From contig NZ_VKDE01000022.1 in the NCBI RefSeq assembly GCF_007097485.1, forward strand, positions 1 through 64,000: DNA of 64,000 nt, read 5' to 3'. The notes under the pieces are model-generated. The model saw nothing but the letters and a program-made list of their open reading frames with translations, was not told the DNA's origin and searched no databases. Numbering within the stretch: position 1 is the first letter of the stretch; every line of letters starts with the position of its first letter. Below are positions 60,203 to 63,114 of the stretch, piece by piece. The stretch comes from Carboxylicivirga sp. M1479 (GTDB taxonomy: Bacteria; Bacteroidota; Bacteroidia; Bacteroidales; Marinilabiliaceae). A program made the position numbers and the translations under genes.

Positions 60203-61035
60203 GGCAGAGGCGCTGAGACACAGAGCACGATAATCATTCTAAATAAACTCCGTGCCTTTGCGTCTCTGTGTTCATGTTATTTTTAAAGATGTAGGTATCT
60301 GGAGAAACATTCAAACAAAAACAACACAGAGACGCTGAGGCACAGAGATTAATTATTCTCAATAAAAAACCTCCGTGCCTTTGCGTCTCTGCGTTTATGC
60401 TATTTTTAAAGATGTAGGTACATGGAGAAACATTCAAACAAAAACAATACAGAGACGCTGAGGCACAGAAATTAATTATTCTCAATAAAGAACCTCCGTG
60501 CCTTTGCGTCTCTGCGTTTATGCTATTTTTAAAGATGTAGATACCTGGAGAAACATTCAAACAAAAACAACACAGAGACGCTGAGCCACAGAAATTAATT
60601 ATTCTCAATAAAAGCCTCTGTGCCTTTGCGTCTCTGCGTTTATGCGTTTATGCTATTTTTAAAGATGTAGGTACATGGAGAAACATTCAAACAAAAACAA
60701 CACAGAGACGCTGAGCCACAGAGATTAATTATTCTCAATAAAGAACCTCTGTACCTTTGCGTCTCTACGTTTATGCTATTTTTAAAGATGTAGGTATCTG
60801 GAGAAACGTTCAAACAAAAACAACACAGAGACGCTGAGCCACAGAGATTAATTATTCTTAATAAAAAACCTCTGTGCCTTTGCGTCTCTGCGTTTATGCT
60901 ATTTTTAAAGATGTAGGTACCTGGAGAAACAATCAAACAAAAACAACACAGAGACGCAGAGACACAGAAATTAATTATTCTTAATAAAAACCCTCTGTGC
61001 CTTTGCGTCTCTGCGTTTATACGTTTATGCTATTT
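60203..61035. repeat. Seven tandem ~123-bp units, each a long hairpin
   Basis: The marker GCCTTTGCGTCTCT (one copy variant) starts at 60254, 60377, 60500, 60622, 60753, 60875 and 60999: spacings 123, 123, 122, 131, 122, 124. The 131 arises from an 8-base duplication (GTTTATGC). Each unit has an arm like ACAGAGACGCTGAG and a complementary arm CTCTGTGCCTTTGCGTCTCT flanking about 23 AT-rich bases. A conserved linker (AAAGATGTAGGTA...GGAGAAAC) joins units. Open frames across it (60234-60936) are by-products because 123 is divisible by three. Confidence 0.9.
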
Positions 61036-61261: not shown

Positions 61262-62347
61262 TTATATGCCAAATCGATATTGTATACCCATTAGCACGAA
61301 ATCATTTCCTGTTCCTTTACCAAATTCTCCACGTAAAGTAAGGCTTTGGTTTAACTCCAAGTTAAATCCAAACTGTACACTCCAGTTGTTTATAATATCC
61401 TTTTTAATACCATAATTAACATCTGATTCTATCAAACTTTCAACGGCTAAGCCTATATCTGTCAATTTCTGATTTTGAGCCTCAAGGAATTCGATTTGCT
61501 TTTGTTCCAATGGATTGCCAGGATCTAACTCGGCTATTTTTTGATTATTTTGGTCTATTTTGTTATCAATGGCCGGAAATAGTTCACTACCCAAGTTAGG
61601 TAAAGCTTCGGCTATACCAATAGACCCAAGGTTCCCCTTATGATCAATAAACCCACGATACATCGCCCCCACATAAAGAGCTAACATAGCCTTTTTACCA
61701 AGGTGCACACGATCGCCTATACGGGCAGATACAACAGCCAGGCGTGCTGGGTCAGTCAACAATTCAGAGTGTGACCACGTCATATTCGCATCGATTGAAA
61801 AGAAGTAACTCTTGTATAATTTAGTTACCAGCGTACTTCCGATACCATAGCTATTAGCCGAGAAGTCTACTGTACTTTTAATTTCTGGCAACATCAACAC
61901 CAAATCGCCATTATCATCGTACCAGGTAGGCTGCAGCGAAACATTTGTTGTTCCCGTATTATTCGCATAAATACCATAAACATTCCAAAAGGGAAATACC
62001 CATACATCAGCACGCAAGTTCATACCACTTGATTTGGCAATAGTATTGGTAAAGTTGAGGGTTTCGAGGTTCACATACTCCGATATTAATTGGTTGATGG
62101 GTGAATTAAGATCATCGCCAATTGTCATACCGAATTGTGTAATTTCCAAATCCATTCGGTTATACACGTAATTAACATTTAAGCCGTATGGTAATTGAAT
62201 TTGATAACCTCTTGCTGTTGCTTGTTTTCCAAATATTGGCATGCTATAAGGCCATTCCTTGTTACTTTGAGTGGTATCTATTTGAGCATTGGACAAGCAG
62301 GCTATGCTAAGAAGAACCAGTAAACTAAGTGTTTTAATTTTCATCAT
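61262..62347 (-). CDS. Outer-membrane beta-barrel protein, unknown function
   Basis: About 361 residues from the ATG at 62347 (second ATG at 62344); the frame is open to 62431 but that part is not a signal peptide. The signal ends CLSNAQ. The mature part alternates short strands with aromatic residues (QIQLPYGLNVNYVYNRMDL, VWVFPFWNVYGIYAN, SIDANMTWSHSEL, LYVGAMYRGF) and ends FVLMGIQYRFGI, a terminal strand consistent with an outer-membrane barrel. A central helical stretch (KIDQNNQKIAELDPG) is probably an extracellular or periplasmic loop. No family recognised. Confidence 0.75.
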   Translation of the reverse strand: MMKIKTLSLLVLLSIACLSNAQIDTTQSNKEWPYSMPIFGKQATARGYQIQLPYGLNVNYVYNRMDLEITQFGMTIGDDLNSPINQLISEYVNLETLNFTNTIAKSSGMNLRADVWVFPFWNVYGIYANNTGTTNVSLQPTWYDDNGDLVLMLPEIKSTVDFSANSYGIGSTLVTKLYKSYFFSIDANMTWSHSELLTDPARLAVVSARIGDRVHLGKKAMLALYVGAMYRGFIDHKGNLGSIGIAEALPNLGSELFPAIDNKIDQNNQKIAELDPGNPLEQKQIEFLEAQNQKLTDIGLAVESLIESDVNYGIKKDIINNWSVQFGFNLELNQSLTLRGEFGKGTGNDFVLMGIQYRFGI

Positions 62348-62517
62348 ATTTAAGTTAGTTTGATAAGCAATTTGTTGTGATTTTTCTATCCTTTTAACAA
62401 ATATAAGAAACAAATGTTTGGCTATAACCATTGCATTGCCATGCTAAGAAGCACTTGAAGATGAATAGAGGGCGATATTTAAGAGAGAAGTTGACAGTTC
62501 TCTTATCACGAAGAAAT
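62348..62517. other. Spacer between the barrel gene and the palindrome array
   Basis: About 170 bases. It should contain the promoter of the minus-strand barrel gene. No other structure recognised. Plus and minus reading frames extending from the array run into it. Confidence 0.4.
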
Positions 62518-62794
62518 CAGGTGGGGGATCATCATCATCCCCTTGGGGCGAGACATGATCCCCAAGGGGCGCGGATTTGGAACCATGGGGATAAAGATTT
62601 GCCCCAACAAAAGAACCTTTCGCCCCATGGGGCGAAAAGAAATCCCCAAGGGGATGACAATGCGCCCCATGGGGATGACTGTAAAAAACTAGGGGCGAAA
62701 GTTGTGCCCCTAGGGGATAATCGTGCGCCCCTAGGGGATTAAGGCTTGCCCCAGGGGGATAAGGACCATCCCCTTGGGGCGAAGCCTTTGGCAT
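62444..62794 (-). CDS. Possible heptad-repeat protein encoded across the palindrome array
   Basis: 116 codons. It reads as 13 seven-residue units of the form P-(L/H/Q/P)-G-(A/D/S)-x-x-x, for example PLGAHDY, PLGAQLS, PHGAHCH, then a Ser-rich tail. Its ATG overlaps the stop of the upstream coiled-coil gene (TAATG at 62794), which suggests translational coupling. Against it: the opposite strand is open in the same way and encodes the same heptad pattern, as expected of 21-bp palindromic DNA, and the variable central bases change Leu, His and Gln freely. Coding status is therefore uncertain. Confidence 0.35.
   Translation of the reverse strand: MPKASPQGDGPYPPGASLNPLGAHDYPLGAQLSPLVFYSHPHGAHCHPLGDFFSPHGAKGSFVGANLYPHGSKSAPLGDHVSPQGDDDDPPPDFFVIRELSTSLLNIALYSSSSAS
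62518..62779. repeat. Array of 10-bp CCCCWWGGGG palindromes at exact 21-bp spacing
   Basis: Decamer positions begin at 62518, 62539, 62560, 62581, 62602, 62623, 62644, 62665, 62686, 62707, 62728, 62749 and 62770, every 21 bp with no slip. Seven are perfect CCCC-WW-GGGG with centre TT, AA, AT or TA (62539, 62560, 62623, 62644, 62665, 62707, 62728), as is 62770 (TT). 62749 is CCCCAGGGGG, and 62581, 62602, 62686 and 62518 keep only one good half. The 11-bp linkers differ but nearly all begin AT or CG. The array is GC-rich in an AT-rich genome. Confidence 0.95.
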
Positions 62795-63114
62795 TACTTC
62801 CTGAACTTACGAACCTTTTTAATCAACTCGTCTTCCTTACCCAGTAAACCCGACAGCAAGTCGGCAAAGTTCGATGCCTCGCGGTAAGCCTCATCTAACT
62901 TATCGTTAGACAGTTTAGTAGCCTCTTTGGCCTTGGCAGCGGCTTCTTGCTGAGCGATCTCTGCTGTAGCAGCTTCTTGCTTTTTCACTTTTAAAGCTTC
63001 GACCTTAGTGGCCGGATCAAATCCACTCGTCACCAAGCGATCGTTCGACTCTTCAACAGGGGTAATCATTTGCGATACAAAATCGCGCTTTGTTGCTTCA
63101 TTCATTTTTGCCAT
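62794..63114 (-). CDS. Small coiled-coil protein, unknown function
   Basis: 106 residues from the ATG at 63114; the frame extends upstream to 63255 but with no credible start. It is rich in Lys, Glu and Ala, with a long helix predicted from about residue 40 to 100 (VEALKVKKQEAATAEIAQQE, AKEATKLSNDKLDEAYREAS) and a basic tail (IKKVRKFRK). No signal or membrane segment. It resembles small helical Bacteroidota proteins of unknown function, but I cannot name a family. Its stop overlaps the start of the heptad ORF, and the palindrome array lies immediately downstream, so the array and this gene may form one unit. Confidence 0.7.
   Translation of the reverse strand: MAKMNEATKRDFVSQMITPVEESNDRLVTSGFDPATKVEALKVKKQEAATAEIAQQEAAAKAKEATKLSNDKLDEAYREASNFADLLSGLLGKEDELIKKVRKFRK

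Follow-up and report, generated by a model that had tools for sequence, protein, structure and literature searches.

The 64,000-nucleotide stretch analysed here (the window, from Carboxylicivirga sp. M1479, contig NZ_VKDE01000022.1) contains a 273-bp array of 13 units of 21 bp at 62518..62790, with no strand assigned. The array is probably a non-coding DNA element, composed of a row of protein-binding sites for a cooperative dimer. The class to which it belongs looks like an undescribed multi-site DNA element and not an ordinary repeat. Known repeat families keep their sequence, whereas the arrays of this class retain their spacing and layout and have a different sequence at each locus. To our knowledge, no known class combines a conserved pitch and layout with a sequence private to each locus. 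Literature searches for such arrays found no description, which is weak evidence, as most subscription journals lie outside their coverage. The pattern is hard to explain without a ruler, either a protein assembly with a two-turn pitch or an enzyme measuring 21 bp.

Each unit comprises a 2-bp flank (mostly AT or CG/TG), the arm CCCC, a 2-bp centre, the arm GGGG, a second 2-bp flank (AT or CG), and a 7-bp spacer core. The initial annotation, made from the sequence alone, reported 13 registers of exactly 21 bp, or two helical turns, and both the pattern positions and the self-identity of the array bear this out (0.55 at lag 21, compared with 0.37 at lag 20 and 0.38 at lag 22). It also stated that the palindrome is kept in every register, which is true in part: the full CCCC-NN-GGGG is present in 9/13 units and all four W-W centres (TT, AA, AT, TA) occur, but units 1, 4, 5, and 9 have one arm only. 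Eight of the 13 units are CCCC-WW-GGGG, and unit 12 has AG at its centre. The motif CCCCNNGGGG is found 9 times in the window, every time within the array, while shuffled sequences have a mean of 0.15 and a maximum of 2. With a G+C of 0.56 in DNA of 31–44% G+C per kb, the array is indeed the G+C-rich island described earlier. Flank variability within it is 0.48, and AT and CG alternate there. In units 6–7 (62621..62655, no strand), CG-CCCC..GGGG-CG is followed by AT-CCCC..GGGG-AT, as would be expected had one linker been inverted in register. Elsewhere in the window, at 60240-61020, a 123-bp unit is repeated in tandem (6.3 copies, 91% matches), and the minus strand there has long ORFs that look like chance.

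The genome (5.4 Mb, 130 contigs) has further copies of the array, which lie on contigs C1 (88% identity) and C2 (85%) and, more distantly related, on C37; the window copy is C46. Units 1–10 of C46, C1, and C2 match one to one. Since the linkers and the defective units of the window array have counterparts at the same unit positions in C1 and C2, the array has been copied as a cassette. The 27 bp at 62770..62796 (no strand) are 100% identical to C1:193266-193292 and end at the stop codon of the adjoining helical-protein gene; they mark one border of the cassette. The linker of C2 unit 12 is the exact reverse complement of that of C46 unit 2, so segments have probably been inverted without loss of register.

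Substitutions between these copies fall very unevenly. Over units 2–10 (62539..62727, no strand), three pairwise comparisons among the three copies, which are not mutually independent, give 0/216 changes in the arms, 6/108 in the flanks, 18/54 in the centre, and 54/189 in the spacer core. Fisher tests on these non-independent comparisons give p=1e-20 for arms against core and p=2e-14 for centre against arms. The deviant arms AACC, AAAC, and CAAA are preserved as strictly as CCCC. The 11-bp linkers had been considered nearly free, but they include, against each arm, the rarely changing 2-bp flank, and only the core of about 7 bp is free. Unit-by-unit alignment by eye between species (L044 with L045; the window with L078) shows no correspondence; the linkers have turned over, and the rate test therefore concerns one cassette family. 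Column variability in seven arrays picked by hand is 0.05–0.11 for the arms and 0.15–0.46 for the core. In six of these seven, the arms are the least variable of arm, centre, and core, and in L161 the centre (0.05) is about equal to the arms (0.06). Several arms vary in part of the G032:C2 array (CCCT), which counts against arm constraint.

A neutral minisatellite, growing by slippage of whole units, homogenised by conversion, and functionless, is an unlikely account of these arrays. It agrees with the difference in unit number between copies (C46 has 13 and C1 has 12, lacking one unit beyond unit 10), with the near-identical repeats of L046, L085, L092, and L161 (lag-21 identity 0.80–0.86), and with a longer supra-repeat in L113. 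The contrast between frozen arms and free core opposes it, and so do the deviant arms, since homogenisation would erase arms that are here kept unit by unit. The single pitch of 21 over unrelated sequences (part of the regions being seeded on lag 21) and the two unit orientations seen in register by eye also speak against it.

A coding origin, in which the array would encode heptads of the type P-x-G-(A/D)-x-x-x in the manner of PARCEL repeats, is scarcely credible. In the window array, one minus-strand frame lacks stops and forms an ORF whose ATG shares bases with the stop codon of the neighbouring gene; the best plus-strand frame has a single stop. However, a codon reading of the copies shows no change at all at the silent third positions of CCC and GGG and free change in the codons between them, which is the reverse of protein conservation. 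All six frames are stopped in 16/39 arrays, and for eight ORFs taken from arrays neither Pfam nor NCBIfam gives a family over the cut-off. The earlier proposal that selection or copying acts on DNA symmetry and not on protein sequence is thus upheld by the unchanged arms with their frozen silent sites and by the stopped frames, and silent changes, which it named as possible counter-evidence, do not dominate. PARCEL elements share the tandem units, the dyad symmetry at the DNA level, the variable sequence, the patchy distribution, and, in many cases, the opposite-strand ORFs, but they have a coding unit of 75 nt (25 residues), and the unit here is 21 nt and non-coding.

A transcribed row of hairpins, serving as a terminator, stabiliser, or decoy, is highly improbable. 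The location of the arrays at 3′ ends would suit it, and in 17/19 gene-linked arrays the folding energy on the gene strand lies under that of shuffles (z under -2). Folding energies are nevertheless much alike on both strands. Mirror pairs in the 19 gene-linked arrays are at or below column expectation (968 vs 1010 expected; 969 vs 988), with no surplus of G-T over A-C mismatches (198 vs 237; 195 vs 235); these arrays therefore show no sign of RNA pairing. Heterologous half-sites predominate in L080 (by eye), and a single tRNA is all that Rfam finds in the window at gathering score. The frozen silent positions oppose coding and the mirror pairing, no better than expected, opposes hairpins; the constraint therefore lies on the DNA half-sites.

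The array adjoins a gene for a 103-residue all-helical protein (KRDFVxQMI ... RKFRK) at 62794..63105 on the minus strand, which reads towards the array and whose stop codon lies 3 bp beyond the last unit; in-frame starts farther upstream are possible. The next gene on the same strand is a 389-residue ORF at 61262..62431 (minus), with no Pfam family over the cut-off. The AlphaFold2 model of the helical protein has helices at residues 3–19, 21–26, 32–88, and 93–101 (mean pLDDT 92.7, pTM 0.61); in outline it is a helix, a long one of 57 residues, and a short one at the C-terminus. This protein has no family match in Pfam, NCBIfam, PADLOC, or PHROGs, and other members of its family give scattered weak matches (best E=0.0019). 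Foldseek with the model gives three matches with a best E of 8.1, and no solved fold is near. The best PDB sequence match, the MafG coiled coil (E=0.01), is probably helix likeness. Neither the family, PDB-sequence, nor Foldseek searches recognise a DNA-binding family or fold, and no segment looks variable enough to account for the many half-site vocabularies described below.

Homologues of the helical protein occur in 8/71 genomes of the family (the window's own counted) and at 18 named loci, with hosts including Carboxylicivirga, Saccharicrinis, Labilibaculum, Gaoshiqia, Draconibacterium, Maribellus, and Sunxiuqinia. Three homologues are from a metagenome bin labelled Desulfobulbaceae, which is suspected to be mis-binned. 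A virus or plasmid origin was considered and rejected: 43 pattern matches in viral contigs gave 0 confirmed relatives of the gene, and none was confirmed in plasmids. Five viral contigs with a triple CCCC pattern contain G+C-rich repeats that look unrelated. One viral contig has about five terminal 21-bp units like CCCCGTGGGGCCGAACTGACA (L096:12-117), with no sequence kinship to the window array as read.

A 21-bp array follows the helical-protein gene at 21/22 assessable loci in several families, beginning about 10–290 bp past the matched gene. Each place is counted once, named loci that repeat genome-search loci (e.g. L078, L068) being merged where the contigs agree in length or sequence, and two of the 22 (G167, of another family) were examined after the pairing idea had formed. 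For comparison, a strong 21- or 42-bp signal is present in only 12/270 intergenic gaps of the window's genome. The attachment of the array to one gene family is a further point against a functionless minisatellite. Over the first 900 bp past the gene, 16/18 named loci have 21 as the best of lags 12–40; at the other two, the contig ends 42 bp past the gene (L084, which cannot be judged and is left out of the tree) or a single unit and no array is present (L079, which does not enter the profile, pairing, or stop counts). At L079, from about position 2600, this one CCCCCTTGGGG unit is followed by non-periodic DNA with GTGTGC..., which may resemble the beginning of a group II intron. Among the regions seeded on lag 21, this lag is the best of lags 15–30 in 26/26 rows (L079 included, at 0.35), which because of the seeding is no independent test.

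Arrays with the CCCC vocabulary occur in 5/71 genomes of the family, the window's own included, and in one genome of another family. The initial annotation named absence of such arrays from relatives, or variation in their period, as counter-evidence; they are present in relatives, and the related arrays keep the period of 21. Strict CCCC pairs go with the gene, as 4/5 genomes with pairs carry it, compared with 4/66 others (p=0.0003, kinship ignored). The association is incomplete: no helical-protein gene was found in G010, whose genome contains a CCCC array, or in G002, where 21-bp arrays occur.

The half-sites differ by locus and, as read by eye, include CCCC with AAAAC, GCCG with GAAT, GAGA with AACAC, CTGACC, TACCC, AGCAA, and TTACC. 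The letters of one array are found on both strands, often in mixed units. Orientation alternates in L118 and L131, and L133 has a forward and then a reversed block (by eye). The vocabularies cluster on the gene tree and follow it. Array vocabulary correlates with the gene (n=16) in Mantel tests, both in free phase (r=0.35, p=0.0006) and when the arrays are set in dyad register (r=0.24, p=0.012). Vocabulary labels change 5 times on the tree, compared with 9.7 times when shuffled, and 0/200 shuffles are as low; the labels (CCCC, GCC, other) were assigned by eye, that of L079 from one unit and that of L074 from a mixed array. Profile-level dyad symmetry with z>=3 is present in 19/39 arrays and in 12/21 gene-linked arrays. 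Most gene-unlinked arrays lack it. The 21-bp pitch is thus more widespread than palindromic symmetry, and the arrays away from the gene are perhaps of more than one kind. A degenerate dyad profile over 25 arrays, six of them CCCC arrays without the gene, with positions counted from the centre outwards, has almost no C at +0.5, G at 0.73 at +3.5, and G at 0.01 at +5.5; farther out it has C at 0.05 at +6.5, and A at 0.60 with G at 0.25 at +8.5. In 12 other arrays, this profile is not clearly shared.

In the proposed explanation, each 21-bp unit would contain two 6-bp half-sites, each made of an arm and its two flank bases, facing across the 2-bp centre and read by a dimer or by two subunits. Because the pitch equals two helical turns, the bound dimers would lie on one face of the helix and be able to touch. 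The 8–19 weak sites of an array could then work together as a single cooperative assembly where a gene ends; protein binding, the dimeric state, and cooperativity are what we infer for it. A dimeric ligand lining one face of the helix, or else a recombination, segregation, or silencing site, was proposed in the initial annotation; both proposals are hypothetical. It is rather doubtful that the helical protein of the adjoining gene serves as the binder or as a bridging partner: the pairing and the tree favour this, but the lack of a visible DNA-binding feature and the gene-less arrays of G010 and G002 are against it. If the neighbour were the reader, it would represent a novel type of DNA-binding protein that has many different specificities. 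Tentative, and less likely than not, is a hitherto undescribed two-part module of helical-protein gene and array, in which the format (pitch of 21 bp, half-sites that face each other, centre and core free) is fixed, the half-sites are private to the locus and evolve with the gene, and looser 21-bp arrays exist elsewhere in these genomes. The array of such a module may be an address where the protein or a partner polymerises along one helix face. Frozen half-sites beside free positions make the question directly testable, in environmental bacteria.

The row of short sites, the helical phase, and the presence of both orientations in register make the arrays similar to iteron and parS arrays. Plasmid iterons are contiguous short sites in either orientation that are bound along the helix. 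The parS sites of pSM19035, as described in the excerpted text of PMC9499535, are contiguous 7-bp plasmid repeats in either orientation, are likewise bound along the helix, and need at least 4 contiguous repeats for full activity. In contrast, the units here are of 21 bp with 7 free bases, and the products of the helical-protein genes have no Rep or ParB family match in profile searches. The type-2 operator of CsoR/RcnR, with the consensus ATATACCCCTNAGGGGTATAT, has two G/C tracts, a short centre, and a length of about two turns (PMC3902906, in excerpt). There, one to few operators are present, whereas the arrays here form rows of 8–19 sites at 3′ ends; only the CCCC and TACCC vocabularies resemble such operators, and 0/18 aligned neighbouring proteins match the CsoR/RcnR family at E up to 0.1 in Pfam and NCBIfam. 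CRISPR arrays comprise identical repeats of about 25–40 bp, unique spacers, and cas genes, in contrast to the 21-bp unit, 10-bp palindrome, and 11-bp linker of this array. The algal mitochondrial palindromes, as excerpted from PMC4524435, are unrelated. The earlier remark that the array fits no feature class agrees with these comparisons, as REP/BIME (see below), PARCEL, CRISPR, and CsoR operators each miss a defining feature.

REP elements are intergenic, dispersed, and palindromic, and lie mostly between convergent or unidirectional genes; BIMEs have regular unit spacing and alternating orientation, and BIME-2 binds gyrase (PMC3733652 and PMC2817692, in the parts excerpted). A mobile or gyrase-binding repeat of this kind, spread by a RAYT transposase to the 3′ ends of genes, is very unlikely here. 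The arrays are likewise intergenic and dispersed, cassette copies exist, the alternating orientation of L118 and L131 fits, and by nearest ORF 0/14 arrays of the window's genome lie in divergent gaps. This genome has five Y1_Tnp matches, three of them on contig C63, and in Gaoshiqia sediminis an ORF at L082:3713-4339, after a 21-bp array, contains YHIYNRG ... MGNHFHL (by eye), which we take to be a RAYT-type motif. The arrays differ, however, in their 2-bp centre without a hairpin loop and with pairing not above expectation, their fixed 21-bp pitch, and their pairing with a protein gene. Sequence is common only to four CCCC arrays, the other hits being short and the other arrays unrelated, and the window array has 0 GTAG and 0 CGTC tags on either strand. 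Such tags are found in other arrays, with 12 GTAG in L085 and 7 in L080, and 12 CGTC in L092.

The preference for 3′ ends is likely, though not firm. By nearest ORF, seven of the 14 arrays are in convergent and seven in tandem gaps, compared with 35 convergent, 149 tandem, and 60 divergent among 244 background gaps delimited by ORFs of at least 130 residues; p is 0.003 for convergent and 0.045 for divergent, the two ORF rules being different. With the 130-residue rule for both arrays and background, the arrays number 5, 8, and 1, and the effect is weaker (p=0.048 for convergent, 0.20 for divergent). This rule reads the window's own gap as divergent, since the 103-residue gene falls under 130 residues. 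Its use for defining intergenic gaps keeps out lag-21 signals resembling coiled-coil genes, such as those at L106, L107, L112, and L113:13481 (by eye), and it also lost one true array, L113:9669-10080. This twenty-unit 21-bp array begins 23 bp after an ABC-transporter-ATPase-like ORF and contains a multi-unit supra-repeat (by eye). In another species of the genus, a 21-bp array at L148:9501-9740 lies about 50 bp upstream of an IS256-type-transposase-like ORF (by eye).

The 21-bp format recurs with other sequences elsewhere in the window's genome and in relatives. The 864 kb covered in this genome, with the known arrays and the window among them, contain 270 gaps of 150 bp or more. Of these, 20 have z>=5 at some lag, and 12 of the 20 are at 21 or 42 bp, the commonest intergenic repeat spacing in this DNA; shuffled gaps gave one signal in all. 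Two signals are found in 100 kb of G002 (same genus) and one in 80 kb of G032 (another genus, gene present). No 21-bp signal is found in 160 kb of G006 and G009 (same genus, gene present), and other relatives, over 583 kb in all, likewise lack 21- and 42-bp signals; of this DNA, 241 kb come from other genera of the family and 342 kb from other families. Within the latter 342 kb (L163-L182, other families of the order), where 0 gaps are at 21 or 42 bp, four gaps have a best lag of 23 bp, and other lineages may have another pitch.
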